Position numbers and translations under genes: made by a program
DNA from: Butyriboletus loyo
Lineage: Eukaryota > Basidiomycota > Agaricomycetes > Boletales > Boletaceae
Assembly: GCA_038093515.1 (NCBI GenBank)
Contig: JBBPSI010000372.1
Location: 1 to 18,212, forward strand
DNA length: 18,212 nucleotides
Direction of reading: 5' to 3'
Notes under the pieces: model-generated
Told to the model about the DNA's origin: nothing
What the model saw: the letters and a program-made list of their open reading frames with translations, nothing else
Databases searched by the model: none
Part shown: positions 1-18,212 of the stretch, piece after piece
Numbering within the stretch: the stretch's first letter is position 1
Layout: every line of letters starts with the position of its first letter

Positions 1-313
1 AGCTTCCATTGTAGTCTTCTGGTGAGCCTATCTTGAGCTCTGTCGGTTTGTATGTCGACATTCTAGGGTTTCTAAAGCTGATGGGTGAAGGACTGGGTAT
101 GGGAGAAGGCGGTTCGGAAGGAGAAGAGGGGGATTGTGGAATAAAGAGGTCGGAGAAGGATTTAGAAATTTCTTGTGTGGTCCCTTCATTTGATTCTTCA
201 TCTGTAAGGTGGACGTCTGTTTCTATCTCCGATTCGGCTGATTCAGGGGGTTCTGGTTCAGGGTCCGAGGTGATAATGGGAGGTGGGGTTCTAGGGTGGA
301 GGTGAGTGGGTTT
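1..313 (-). pseudogene. gag: Gag-like N-terminal fragment of the gypsy element
   Basis: The frame is open from just after a stop at 316-314 down to the window edge. It begins with a Pro/Ser/Glu-rich acidic stretch of about 80 residues, then a Met at 61-59 and the string TELKIGSPEDYNGS. A short basic lead into a K.G.PE.Y.GS motif is how many fungal Ty3/gypsy Gag proteins enter the capsid-like domain. Upstream, another minus frame (474-223) is also Pro/Ser-rich and starts inside the LTR, so there may be a one-base frameshift near 300-315, or the Met at 61 may be the start. Gag would form the particle shell around the element RNA. Only the N-terminus is visible, so the call depends on one motif. 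Confidence 0.5.
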
Positions 314-402
314 TCAGGATGAGGAAGGACCGGTGAAGGGTTTCTTTGGGTAGGGTTGAATGGTGTGGGTAGGACCACAATGATGGTGGTTGTTCTTTGA
401 GA

Positions 403-414
403 TAAGCTAGATCT
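403..414 (-). promoter_or_regulatory. putative primer-binding site of self-priming type
   Basis: Minus strand AGATCTAGCTTA, starting 2 nt after the LTR end at 417. I could not match it to a common tRNA 3' end, whereas it pairs perfectly over 12 nt with the predicted first 12 nt of the element RNA. In Tf1/sushi elements the first ~11 nt of the RNA anneal to such a site and are cleaved off to prime reverse transcription. Location and partner both fit that scheme. Confidence 0.55.
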
Positions 415-594
415 TTTGTTACGCTTGGACTGGGTAAGTATGAGTATAGACTTGGATGTAGTTCTGGGACTCAAGAGTTCTTCTAGACATTAAGTCTAAC
501 CTTCAAGATGAAGGATTTATCTGGTGTTCTGATTGAAGGAAAATGACTCACTACTAGAGATGAGAGGACAAGGATATTGATTGTGATTCCAAGT

Positions 595-606
595 AGATCT
601 AGCTTA
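595..606 (-). promoter_or_regulatory. predicted transcript 5' end (R start), self-primer sequence
   Basis: Minus strand TAAGCTAGATCT. It is the exact 12-nt complement of the segment just inside the LTR (403-414) and sits where the RNA should start. It also forms one side of an imperfect hairpin: TCTAGCT at 598-604 pairs with AGCTAGA at 618-624 on the plus strand. Confidence 0.55.
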
Positions 607-632
607 GAGTACAACGTAGCTAGACCTCATCA

Positions 633-639
633 TATTATA
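633..639 (-). promoter_or_regulatory. TATA-like box of the gypsy LTR
   Basis: TATAATA on the minus strand lies about 7 nt past the conserved core that also precedes TATAAAAG in the solo LTR at 9402. The predicted transcript start at 606 is 33 nt downstream, a normal TATA-to-start spacing. The position is inferred from spacing and conservation, not from transcript data. Confidence 0.5.
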
Positions 640-4428: not shown

Positions 4429-4937
4429 TGTAACGATAGCAATGCATGGTCGAATGCCAGTACGAATACAACGCCACAAGCGGTCCACTACAGTTGCAGC
4501 TCTACACAAAGAACTGGCAAGTATGAACTAGGAGTCTTAGCTTAATCCTCAACTGTTGCCAGCGAATAGACAAGTGGTTAAAACTAGGGAATCCTAGTCT
4601 AACCACGAGCCTTTATATATTGTACAGAAGTGCGCACAGACCATGCTGTGCGTGAGATGAACTACTATACATGGATAGACTAAAGAAGAGAAGCGCAATG
4701 GTGATTAACCACACAAGGCACGGGGATCATAAAGAAGAGAAGTAAAATGGAGATTAAATACATGTGTTGTGACGTCATAGAGTCTAGGCCTGGTCTAGGC
4801 CATGACATCATATGCTTAGTCAGCAAGAGATCACATGTAAGTTCCCACGATCATGTGTGCTATGTCACGTGACCTTTGAAAGTGAAAACAACTAAGTCCG
4901 AAGTGAAAATGTTCGAATAAATGTTATGATTATAACA
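4429..4937 (-). repeat. solo LTR A, gypsy type (509 bp) with perfect 5-bp target duplication
   Basis: Ends TGTAACGATAG...GATTATAACA on the plus strand, flanked by ACAGT at 4424-4428 and ACAGT at 4938-4942. It is an inverted relative of the solo LTR at 9083-9579 across its whole length. Shared blocks include GTGCGCACAGACCA (4630), TGACGTCA (4770-4777) and GTCACGTGAC (4864-4873). The minus orientation is inferred from a conserved TATAAAG box (RC of 4611-4617) downstream of those sites. No internal element sequence remains, as after LTR-LTR recombination. Confidence 0.88.
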
Positions 4938-6440: not shown

Positions 6441-6588
6441 TTTCAGAATTGGAGAAGTCCGAGCAGGCACACTGAGGGCAATGAAGGATGCAAGGATGAA
6501 CTGATCAGTGAGTCTTTCCACTGATCAGTTCACCCTTGCATCCTTCATTGCCCTCAGTGCACCTGCTCAGACTTCTCCAATTCTGAAA
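6441..6588. repeat. foldback: 70-bp inverted repeat with 8-nt loop
   Basis: The arms 6441-6510 and 6519-6588 are inverted copies differing at about 4 of 70 positions, around the loop AGTCTTTC. Each arm contains CTGATCAG and GGCAATGAAGGATGCAAG. No convincing direct repeat flanks it. The left edge coincides with the last readable copia RT sequence, and the right edge with unassigned DNA. A transcript would fold into a long near-perfect hairpin. It may be a MITE-like foldback element, a small-RNA hairpin locus, or a scar of palindromic breakage. Confidence 0.9.
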
Positions 6589-8872: not shown

Positions 8873-9592
8873 CAGTGAGTGAAAAAACCCTTGCAATGTT
8901 TCACTATTTTGCACTAGATGCCATGTAGCACCTGATGGTGTAGGAATCCCACTTAGCATTGGTGAGGTGGGTGCTAGCACTGCCTCTTGGCTACAAATAG
9001 GTCACTGGGTCATGTGATGTGGCCATGTGGCTGTGGAGATATGTCTATTCTAAAACAGGTATACCATTGCAAGGGTTTATTCTGTTATAATCGTATCTCT
9101 TATAACCATCTTTTGCATTCGGACTTCGTCATATTTCTCTTTCAAAGGTCACGTGACTTCACGCACGTGATCGTGGGATTATACATGTGACCATAGGCTG
9201 ACTAAGCATATGATGTCATGGTCCAGACTGGCCCAGACTCTATGACGTCACGCCTCATGTATTTAATCTCCGTTTACTTCTCTTCTTGTTGATCGCCGTC
9301 GACTTCTATTTCCCATCATCGTCGACCTGTGACTCACTTCATATATACTTGTATAGTAACTAGTCTCACGCACTGCTTGGTCTGTGCGCATTCTCTTGTA
9401 ATATAAAAGGGCTCGTGGTTGCAGCTAGGATTCCCTAGCTTTAACCACTTGTCTTATTCGCTGGCAACAGTTGAGAGATTAAGGCCTGAGCTATCCTCAT
9501 TATACCTCGCCAGTTATTGTGTATAGCTGCAACAGTTGCGGAACCCCGTGTGACTTGATAACATCGTTGTCTCGTAACATATTCACTTTCAG
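8873..9592. repeat. 5' terminal module of Tc1-A with internal inverted repeat, split by solo LTR B
   Basis: The outer segment GTGAAAAAACCCTTGCAATG (8878-8897) recurs inverted at the inner side as CATTGCAAGGGTTTATTCAC, which is itself interrupted by the LTR: 9065-9082 then 9585-9586. Agreement is 19 of 20. Without the LTR and one target copy the module is about 218 bp, the same size as in element B. Confidence 0.7.
9083..9579 (+). repeat. solo LTR B, gypsy type (497 bp) with perfect 5-bp target duplication
   Basis: TGTTATAATCG...CTCGTAACA, flanked by TATTC at 9078-9082 and TATTC at 9580-9584. Promoter-like order on the plus strand is GTCACGTGAC (9148-9157), a second CACGTG (9164-9169), TGACGTCA (9243-9250), the core CTTGGTCTGTGCGCATTCTC (9376-9395) and TATAAAAG (9402). 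A small hairpin AGCTAGG/CCTAGCT (9423-9440) follows where the RNA should start. It is the inverted partner of solo LTR A, and its core matches the left-edge gypsy LTR. It inserted into the inner inverted repeat of the Tc1-A end. Confidence 0.92.
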
Positions 9593-9726: not shown

Positions 9727-10743
9727 ATGAGATCTATCACCTCTACCCAAACGAATACCATCTTGACCATGCTTGATTCTGGTCATTCTGCTTGCTCCAT
9801 TGCCTCCACCACTGGTCTTCATACTTCCACCATCTCTAGGCTTTGTTACAAGGAGTGTTCTACTCTGAAAAAGAACACTGGAGGTTGTCCATCCAAGCTC
9901 TCCCCTGCCAATATCTGCCATGCCATCCATCTCATCTCTACTCACAAGGCAGAAAATGCTGTCCAAGTGACCAAAGCTCTCACAAATATTATCAACCAAC
10001 CCCTCAACCCCAACACATATGCCAGCACTTGAAAAAACCTGGTATAAAGGCTGTGGTCAAGCAAAAATGACCTATCCTCTCTGCCAGGCATTTCAAGGCA
10101 AGAGTAGACTTAGCCTATGCTTACAAGGATTGGACTCTGGAAGACTGGAAGAGGGTAGTATGGTCTGATGAGACTATAATAAATCACCTAGGGTCAGATG
10201 GATGCAAATGGATGTGGAGAAAGCCAGGAGAAAGGCTCAGTGGTAGACTAGTGGAGGGGACACTTGGGTTTTGGAGGAGGTTCTGTGATGATGTGGGGCT
10301 GTACAAGTTGGTAAAAAGCTGGGTATGCCACCAAGATTGATGGTAGGATGGATGGGGACCTATATCTCTAAATTTTGAAGAACAAACTTCAAGATTCCCT
10401 TCAGTATTATGGTCTCAATCCATCTGGTACCATCTTCCAACAAGACAATGACCACAAGCATACTTGCAAGAAGGTCAAGGGATGGCTAGATGAATAGGAA
10501 TTTAGTACTATGATATGGCCAGCACAGTCTCCTGGTCTTAACCCAATAGAACATGCCTGGGGTTACCTCAAGAAAAGACTTGCAGAGTATGAATACCCCT
10601 CCAAGGGAACACTGGAGTTGTGAGAGAGAATTTAGATAAAGTGGAACAAGATACTAGTTGTAGAGTATCAGAAGTTGATTGAAAGCATATCTAGAAGGGT
10701 TCAGGCAGTGCTCAAGGCCAAGGGAGGGTATACCAAGTACTGA
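9727..10743 (+). pseudogene. Tc1-like DD34E transposase (broken)
   Basis: The N-terminal helix-turn-helix region is intact (residues about 10-45, with ACSIASTTGLHTSTISRL), then GGCPSKLSPANICHAI. A frameshift near 10030 is followed by KDWTLEDWKRVVWSDETIIN (first catalytic Asp near 10165), GSDGCKWMWRKPGERL and GGGSVMMWGC. The second Asp is in GTIFQQDNDHKHT and the Glu in WPAQSPGLNPIEHAWGYLKK, 34 residues apart with one stop between. It ends AVLKAKGGYTKY-stop (10741-10743). The catalytic triad is still readable but stops and frameshifts prevent a full protein. The enzyme would cut and paste the element at TA sites. Confidence 0.9.
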
Positions 10744-10773
10744 TATCTTTTGACTTTACAACAATTCAACTAT

Positions 10774-12574
10774 CTAGTATTTGGTATAAGTTCCCTTGGC
10801 CTTGATAACTGATTCAACTCTTCTATGCATGCTTTCTATCCATTTGTGACACTGTTCCATATAAATATTTCCCCACTCTACCACCACCCTTTTCCATAAT
10901 TGATGAACTCCTGTAGGAGCACTATTATATGCTAAGAGACATCTTTTGAGGTGATTCCAAGTGTGTTCAATGGAGTTGAGGTCTGGAGATTGTGCAGGCC
11001 AATCCAGAAGCTTGATTCCTTGCTCCTCAAACCAATTCTGGGCTCTTTTGGAGGTATGTTTGGGATCATTATTCTGCTCAAAAATAATATCATGTTGAGA
11101 AATTCCAGATTTCTCCATGTGTTATAGCAATTCTTCCTCTAGAATTTACACATACTGTTCACCATCCATCCTTCCCTCAACCTCACTTAAAGCCCCCACT
11201 CCATTAAGCTCTATACCATCAGGAAATTTACTCCAAACTTGACTGCACCTGTAACCTCTCTGGCAGTTAGGCCCTTTCTCTTCTTTTTCCACACATATAC
11301 TCCTGTTCACCTGAACCAATTCTATTTATTTTGGTCTTATCTGACCAAATAATCCTCTTCCAGTCCTTATTGATACTTGAGAGCAAAGGCAAATCATCTT
11401 TTTCTAGGGCCAATTGGAAGAAGACATTTCTTCTTCTTTATCACAGCCTTTAAATGCACCCTCCTTGAGGTCTTTTCTCACTGTATGTGAGGGGATTGGA
11501 GGTTCAATGATGGACTTGATGAAATTTGTAGCCTGGACTGCATTTTTGGCCTTGCCAGTAATGATTTGCTAGACAATAGCACATTTGTTGATAGGAGTAA
11601 GCTTAGAAGGACAGCCAGCATGTGTTATGCTGGTGTGCGAAACAACTAGCAGCGAGCGCTTGAATAGGGGCTCGAGCCTAATCGGGAAGATGCCGACTCA
11701 CATAGATGACACTATCGGGCTTCTGCAGAGCAAGTGTCAGCGAGATGTCATGTGGTGGCGACCAGATGAGATCGAGCAGGCTCTTATCGGCTCTATCAGC
11801 AGAGATGGGTATAAGCTAGATTGCTAGGCACTTGGTAGATGCATAGAATTAGCTAGGGAAGTCGTACTATGCTAAGTACACTGGTATATATACTAATAGA
11901 TATTGTGCACAGACTGAGCTGTGCGTGGCAGTGAGGGCAAGGGGTTATGAGTTGACTCAAGTCATAACGGCGAATGGAGAAGCAGCAAAGTGCCGGTAAC
12001 GAGGGAGCAAAGTGGCGACATTATCAACGAATGAGAAGAGCTGAAGGTGAAGTGACAATGTCCACAAGGTGGGGCCCACAGGGCAAAGGGGACACGAACA
12101 GCGGAGACCTTGGATATGGGTCTTGGCGTGCTAGTCAAGGACACATCGTAATCTAGTCACGTGATAAACCAAATGTCATTGGATAAAGAATAAGAGGACA
12201 CAACAGCTCAGCTGTGGGTCTGGCCCGATGGGGCAATGACATAGGGGCTATCTCAGTGTTGCAATACTGAGACTTGCGGAATGACTGGGGAAGTGGATGA
12301 CGTCCACTGGGCGACTAGGGAGTGGGTGATGGGTGGCATTAGCAGATGGTGGGGGCGGCAGGGACATGTGAGCGTGGGAAAATGAGTGGCGGGGTACGCT
12401 TAGGGGTAAAATTGTAACAGCATGAAGCTTCTCCTTGTTAGGTTGGATCTCTTGGAGTACTCTAGCCACAGTAGACTTCCCTAGGCCAGTCTGGGAGGCA
12501 ATCTTCCTAGTTGAAAGGCCAAGAGAGGAGAAAGAGATAATATTTTGTCTTAGAGAGGTGGAAATGGATTTCAT
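10774..12574 (-). pseudogene. Tc1-like DD34E transposase (interrupted, catalytic Asp changed)
   Basis: The N-terminal part (12574-12420) holds a helix-turn-helix with LSTRKIASQTGLGKSTVARV. The reading breaks at the LTR and resumes at 11617 as GCPSKLTPINKC. Taking out the LTR and one target copy leaves the frame unbroken across the joint (EKLHAGCPSKL), so the insertion hit an open gene. Further on there are stops and frameshifts. IIWSDKTKINRIGS (near 11345) keeps the first Asp but has Lys where Glu is usual. The second block reads FEQNNDPKHTS, with Asn in place of the catalytic Asp. The Glu in SPDLNSIEHTWNHLKR is kept, 34 residues on. The last 114 residues (11118-10774) are open. Confidence 0.88.
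11623..12419 (-). repeat. solo LTR C, gypsy type (797 bp) with perfect 5-bp target duplication
   Basis: TGTTATGCTGG...AAATTGTAACA on the plus strand, flanked by GCATG at 11618-11622 and GCATG at 12420-12424. It is longer than LTRs A and B, but keeps the same order of landmarks as LTR A: GTGCACAGAC (11905-11914) with GCTGTGCGTGG after it, and GTCACGTGAT (12156-12165). A TATATATA box lies at 11885-11892. It is rich in CpG, unlike the Tc1 it interrupts. It is probably a related but distinct gypsy family. The 80-residue frame 11585-11827 inside it has no family resemblance and is taken as chance. Confidence 0.9.
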
Positions 12575-12720: not shown

Positions 12721-12935
12721 TAAAGTCAAACAACTGTCTGCATGACCTGTCATTTTAAAATAGTTGACATTCCATCAAACCTTATCCATATTATCTGATT
12801 CCTGGGCCAATAGAAGGCCAAGGGTGGGTGCCCTATTTCATACACCCACCACCTAGGGTTAGAATCAGGGGTTATTGCATTGAGTGATATTTAATGTAAA
12901 ACATGCAAACATGCAGATAGTTTTTTGAGCCACTG
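12721..12935. repeat. 5' terminal module of Tc1-B with internal inverted repeat
   Basis: Read inward from 12935 (minus), the outer segment TCAAAAAACTATCTGCATG reappears inverted at the inner edge, where the plus strand reads GTCAAACAACTGTCTGCATG (12725-12744). The whole 215 bp is present again, in the other orientation, at 18000-18212 with scattered differences. Confidence 0.85.
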
Positions 12936-12945
12936 TATATTGAAT

Positions 12946-17981: not shown

Positions 17982-17999
17982 GTAAGTGATTTCTATATA

Positions 18000-18212
18000 C
18001 AGTTGCTCAAAAAACTGTCTGCATGTTTGCATGTTTTACATTAAATATCACTCAACACAATAACCCCTGATCCTAACCCTAGGTGGTGGGTGTATGAAAT
18101 AAGGTACACACCCTTGGCCTTCTATTGACCCAGGAATCAGGTAATATGGATAAGGCTGAATGGAATGTCAGCTATTTTAAAATGACAGGTCATGTGGACA
18201 GTTGTTTGACTT
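18000..18212. mobile_element. Tc1-like element C, outer end (partial, runs off right edge)
   Basis: Starts CAGTTGCTCAAAAAACTG at 18000 with TA at 17998-17999. It matches the inverted 12721-12935 module over its full length to the window end, including the inner inverted segment (GACAGTTGTTTGACTT). It lies 18 bp past the donor of the third intron of gene B. Whether a transposase or only a short non-autonomous copy follows is outside the window. Confidence 0.85.

Follow-up and report, generated by a model that had tools for sequence, protein, structure and literature searches.

Self-priming of reverse transcription is established for the retrotransposon Tf1 and has been inferred for Tj1, Tosmo/Tcry, Tcn1, and plant elements of the Tcn1 clade (PMC4600332, PMC7175516, PMC10085805, PMC6317226, in the portions of these papers available). 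Tf1 RNA pairs with the primer-binding site (PBS) through its first 11 nt and is cut between nt 11 and 12 (PMC7175516, available portion), and a leader folded into three duplexes, termed a "pretzel", has been published for fission-yeast elements (PMC10085805, available portion). Self-priming has also been proposed for Tcn1 of Cryptococcus, while Tcn2-5 perhaps use other mechanisms (PMC7175516). For the plant element SM-Tcn1, the accessible text of PMC2864245 reports neither a tRNA nor a self-priming signal, and the accessible text of PMC5445492 says of priming only the name of Tf1's mechanism. The priming terms looked for were absent from both PMC3248453, which surveys LTR elements of fungi, and a paper on Laccaria transposons (PMC3411680).

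The window (the whole stretch of 18,212 nt analysed here) carries what we identify as the 5' end of an LTR retrotransposon of the chromodomain Ty3/gypsy type, comprising its LTR, its PBS, and the next 402 nt; it is referred to below as family A. The copy is a fragment that runs off the contig, with one LTR on the contig and no pol. Its features are as follows.

904-417, minus strand: 5' LTR (TGTTAC...GTAACA; 488 nt) of the family A element, supported by alignment with 30 related LTR copies and by a complete copy on contig C14
639-633, minus strand: TATA-like box TATAATA, at LTR positions 266-272, invariant in 30/30 aligned LTRs
617-627, minus strand: U3 arm AGGTCTAGCTA, nearly identical to the PBS and in inverted orientation to the primer, with which it is predicted to form a 10-bp hairpin containing one G-U pair
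606-595 (11-nt core 605-595), minus strand: putative self-primer segment TAAGCTAGATCT, within the LTR
416-415, minus strand: spacer AA between LTR end and PBS, its 2-nt length common to families A, B, C, and D
414-403 (11-nt core 414-404), minus strand: PBS AGATCTAGCTTA, in the internal region
1-416, minus strand: start of the internal region of the family A element, cut by the contig start

On the minus strand, the PBS at 414-403 and the LTR segment at 606-595 are exact 12-nt complements, and 33 nt separate the start of the TATA-like box (639) from position 606. Both the complementarity and the TATA distance had been reported in the sequence-only reading of this DNA and are borne out by the letters of the window. 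The same reading placed the PBS 2 nt inside the 5' LTR, which needs correction: it lies 2 nt beyond the 3' end of the LTR, in the internal region. Over the 416 internal nt, identity is 91% and 89% to two full family A copies and 84% to a third.

Elsewhere in the window there is a 222-nt inverted repeat (12723-12944 and 17991-18212; 92% complementary, with 5046 nt between the arms) that reaches the contig end, and a 70-nt inverted repeat with an 8-nt loop (6441-6588; 94% complementary). Short ORFs at 9727-11118 and 12248-12574 look like pieces of Tc1/mariner-type transposases.

Our preferred reading, to which we assign a probability of roughly 0.88, is that the window element would start reverse transcription with its own RNA 5' end, in the manner demonstrated by experiment for Tf1 and without a tRNA. 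From the complementarity, its position, and the covariation described below, we infer an RNA start, a cleavage, and a priming step. The transcript would start at the A of the primer segment, probably at 605, and so begin AAGCUAGAUCU; its 5' end would fold back and anneal to the PBS, which lies 2 nt past the LTR, the RNase H of the element would cut after about nt 11, and the cleaved 5' fragment would prime minus-strand DNA synthesis. The system of families A to D (see below) would then be a further case of the known Tf1-type self-priming.

Tf1 of Schizosaccharomyces pombe resembles our element in being of the chromodomain Ty3/gypsy type, in having a PBS next to the 5' LTR that is complementary to the 5' 11 nt of the RNA (here the probable ones), and in its U5-IR stem, of which a possible counterpart is predicted here. 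It differs in that the RNA start and RNase H cut are here inferred from sequence, that pairing spans 10 nt in families B and D, and that the U3 of families A and C contains an additional, inverted copy. Tj1 (S. japonicus) and Tosmo/Tcry (fission yeasts) are similar in that their self-primer was likewise inferred from LTR/PBS complementarity or leader folding, and Tj1 shares the 5-bp target duplication. Their hosts are ascomycetes, however, and a "pretzel" of three duplexes is reported for them, whereas here one flanking duplex is partly supported. Tcn1 of Cryptococcus shares, going by its description, a basidiomycete host and proposed self-priming.

The assignment to the chromodomain type draws on other copies of family A. 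The copy on contig C185 (L041) gave matches to RVP_2, RVT_1, RNase H, Integrase_H2C2, rve (below its cut-off), SH3_Tf2-1, and Chromo, that is, the Ty3/gypsy domain order with a C-terminal chromodomain, in a coding region of three open pieces with stops between them. A complete copy on C14 has LTRs that are 97.4% identical, TG...CA termini, and a 5-bp target duplication (ATGTG). Most of the best 120 matches to the protease-RT piece lacked a species name; those that had one came from Pisolithus, Coniferiporia, and Phellinidium, together with one frog record. The top species-named matches were Pisolithus tinctorius proteins (51% and 47% identity), and we accordingly take the host for a basidiomycete. 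An open frame of 1199 aa on C198 (L044) was considered as family A pol and is instead assigned to family B, because it is mostly 42-56% identical to the pol found beside family A LTRs and at least 92% identical to other nested copies. The chromovirus load of this genome is heavy (413 first-look RNase H candidates and 396 for SH3_Tf2-1, 150 of each scored), with a good number of the candidates in open frames near 1200 aa.

The arrangement recurs across family A. The 12-mer occurs 79 times in the 30.3 Mb genome, versus 4 times for its reversed control, and in 12 places two matches face each other 191-193 nt apart (the other 55 matches enter as a count only); because of these 12 places, we regard the PBS/LTR arrangement as a property of the family. 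PBS sites at ≤3 mismatches numbered 15, versus 1 for the control. Pairing was counted in copies in which both the LTR segment and the PBS were present, with ≤2 mismatches allowed in each; for one element, a row (L054) had drawn the LTR segment from the 3' LTR, and the element was counted via its proper 5' LTR (L055). All 11 core positions pair in 11 of the 12 distinct copies, and 10 positions pair in the remaining one. The twelfth pair is kept in 11/12 copies and lost in the copy on C206, where both partners are changed. Among 30 family A LTR copies (L009-L038), which were gathered by whole-LTR similarity and not by the 12-mer, the first T of the 12-mer is C in 3, and the next 11 positions show one change in 330 cells. 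Since the twelfth position varies while the 11 core positions barely change, and since the C206 copy has lost the twelfth pair and no other, the primer is more likely to be 11 nt starting with A than 12 nt. The sequence-only reading had proposed a 12-nt primer; its 12 nt of complementarity stand, and its primer length gives way to 11 nt on account of the variable twelfth position.

Conservation of the primer within family A was itself considered as evidence and downgraded to weak, as it is unremarkable after CpG columns are removed. Variation in the family A LTRs is concentrated at CpG (mean minor fraction of 0.29 in 68 columns vs. 0.038 in 420 columns), as if from cytosine methylation or a RIP-like process. 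In the non-CpG columns, 41/410 windows were as well conserved as the primer, and 81 as well as the U3 arm. A family A copy on C215, in which similarity begins at LTR position 294, was considered as a possible swap of U3 at the start of the RNA. Among the sequences analysed, the part upstream of that position matched only itself and a 24-nt piece, and the copy is therefore treated as a truncated LTR and unused as evidence.

To compare families, we scanned 62 sequences, some of them overlapping, for a TAACA end with a segment after it that shows complementarity to the preceding 60-420 nt, a requirement that makes families without complementarity beside TAACA invisible to the scan. From 654 anchors, 20 contexts were recovered. 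Four families account for 18 of these, all with a spacer of exactly 2; the remaining 2 are one place with a long inverted repeat and spacer 0 and were dropped. A direct-match control of the scan gave 14 contexts, of which 7 are the family A U3 arm and 7 are artefacts with anchors in the first 60 nt. The LTRs of families A and C were recognized from an LTR pair and that of family D by the scan only, while the LTR end of family B was read from the sequence, as the family B pair is truncated where the retrieved stretch ends.

Thus, one genome contains four different complementary LTR/PBS pairs: AAGCTAGATCT / AGATCTAGCTT in family A, ATCTAGTTCT / AGAACTAGAT in family B, AGCTTTAACCA / TGGTTAAAGCT in family C, and AGCTAATTCT / AGAATTAGCT in family D. 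Outside family A the complementarity is 10-11 nt long, being 10 nt, not 11, in B and D. With ≤2 mismatches allowed to each motif, pairing was full at every position in 11/12 copies of A, 7/7 of B, 7/8 of C, and 2/2 of D; from this tally we left out 11/18 rows under B and 1/3 under D, which are family A copies picked up by loose matching. Each of the four primer segments begins with an A, located 32-36 nt downstream of the TATA start (one copy per family). Genome-wide, PBSs with an LTR end numbered 916 for the C type at ≤2 mismatches (control 26) and 306 for the B/D type (control 23); mixed B/D forms, which the latter pattern allowed, were absent among the places listed, the first of the 306.

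Covariation was also detected within family C, which comprises two subfamilies with AGC or AGT in the LTR and, correspondingly, GCT or ACT in the PBS (a compensated C-T / G-A difference). Both subfamilies are represented by solo LTRs in the window.

4429-4937, minus strand: solo LTR of family C, of the subfamily with AGTTTTAACCA (4585-4575), target duplication ACTGT
9083-9579, plus strand: solo LTR of family C, of the subfamily with AGCTTTAACCA (9437-9447), target duplication TATTC

A pattern permitting all four combinations of LTR and PBS letters, which left out decayed copies, matched 103 places. Letters were examined for the first 35 of these, and all 35 were concordant (18 C:G, 17 T:A, 0 discordant). 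Six family C copies were fetched separately; 5 pair fully and 1 (L067) has a single mismatch. With two copies excepted, the subfamilies also differ in length, so that the covariation within family C probably represents one or few independent events.

The sequence-only reading had named covariation between the two segments as a check of its interpretation. That check gave four different complementary pairs in four families together with the concordance within family C. These results, in combination with a chromodomain Ty3/gypsy polyprotein in other copies of family A, lend good, if inferential, support to the self-priming interpretation that the earlier reading had offered.

We considered whether a tRNA of the cell, either whole or as an internal fragment, acts as the primer, with the LTR complementarity incidental. 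The PBS of family C begins with TGG, like an ordinary tRNA-type PBS, but those of families A, B, and D do not. When a T-arm-plus-acceptor pattern ending in the family C 11-mer was used to look for a corresponding tRNA 3' end, it had 0 matches genome-wide. No tRNA fit emerged from this search, which covered family C. A tRNA primer would furthermore leave the four complementary pairs and the compensated subfamily difference unexplained, and we regard it as very unlikely.

It could also be argued that the pairing is real and selected, but for a long-range RNA structure (e.g., for packaging or translation control), and that something else is the primer. What the sequences show is base pairing, and several leader structures are possible, both of which would be compatible with such a role. 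Nonetheless, a PBS located 2 nt beyond the LTR, a segment whose initial A falls close to where the RNA should start, and the precedent published for Tf1/sushi elements fit priming, which makes a purely structural role improbable. As to chance, or a side effect of short palindromes (AGATCT, AGCT, CTAG) in the LTR, the 12-mer does contain palindromic pieces and a third related copy is present in U3. Set against this, the probability of finding a 12-nt PBS complement anywhere in the 488-nt LTR with a spacer of 0-5 is ~1.7e-4 for one element (assuming equal base frequencies), and three further, different pairs occur at the same place with covariation between families. We consider a chance origin to be negligible.

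We also folded the leaders of the copies. Pairing between the 5' end and the PBS was predicted at 0.93-0.97 in 9 copies and at 0.80-0.95 with all but the two segments shuffled. Because shuffling the rest preserves such values, the folding adds little and reflects the duplex itself only. A possible stem like the U5-IR may be formed in the window by two segments.

588-593, minus strand: CTTGGA, just after the primer, candidate strand of a U5-IR-like stem (0.020 of shuffles as good, 25-nt target)
424-429, minus strand: TCCAAG, close to the LTR end and preceding it, predicted to pair with 588-593 in this stem

When the 25 nt after the primer were compared with the 25 nt before the PBS, ≤0.043 of shuffles (uncorrected) were as good in 4/5 copies of A, 2/2 of B, and 2/2 of D; the stem was unsupported in the fifth A copy (0.58) and lacking in both C copies (0.29, 0.26). 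When the target for the flank before the PBS was the entire LTR interior, 0/11 copies reached ≤0.05 of shuffles. For the flank downstream of the PBS, which would form the second "pretzel" duplex, 2/11 did so (uncorrected), and this second duplex is not supported. A three-duplex "pretzel" leader in families A to D would thus be at best half supported by these predictions.

An additional feature of families A and C is an inverted copy of the primer in U3. In family A this arm (AGATCTAGCTA, LTR positions 278-288) lies just upstream of the primer and is kept in the 30 LTRs save for 3 single changes. A hairpin of at least 10 bp between arm and primer was predicted in 9/12 family A 5'-LTR contexts; it was weaker or missing in L004, L051, and L053. 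A comparable arm, containing a triplet that is left unpaired, occurs in family C (e.g., the LTR of L042), where arm and primer covary. The two inner arm/primer pairs that vary freely in family C are both kept in 15/15 haplotypes (G-C in 14 and A-T in 1 for one pair; A-T in 9 and G-C in 6 for the other), and the triplet varies; the haplotype search pattern fixed most other arm/primer positions. Predicted pairing of the primer upstream in U3-R was 0.80-0.91 in A (3 copies) and C (2 copies) and 0.02-0.11 in B (2 copies) and D (2 copies). In families B and D, different short palindromes (weak ones in B) occupy the interval from TATA to the RNA start, and a promoter or 3'-end role for the arm is therefore also possible. 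In the U3 of family B (L035, L045, L051, L056, L058, L061), a palindrome AAAGAC..GTCTTT overlaps the end of the TATA box; it shows an apparent compensated change to AAAGGC..GCCTTT in L035 and L051, is broken in L044, and has weak fold scores.

As the arm would lie in U3, it would be absent from the RNA 5' end and present beside the 3' copy of R. The RNA would then contain these 11 nt two times. The speculative reading we prefer for the arm of families A and C, possible though in our view rather doubtful, is that it locks the primer copy at the 3' end in a hairpin and leaves the 5' copy free to reach the PBS. Such a 3' hairpin would keep the PBS from capturing, and RNase H from cutting, the 3' copy that is needed for strand transfer. 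No description of a U3 arm opposite a self-primer turned up among the open-access search results listed or in the papers cited above. If true, masking by the arm would answer how a self-priming RNA that carries the primer sequence at both ends avoids the wrong one.

The four different primer/PBS pairs constitute a natural covariation test. With Tf1-type self-priming as the reading we favour for families A to D, a rare priming mechanism that was worked out in fission yeast would be extended to several families of one basidiomycete-like genome.
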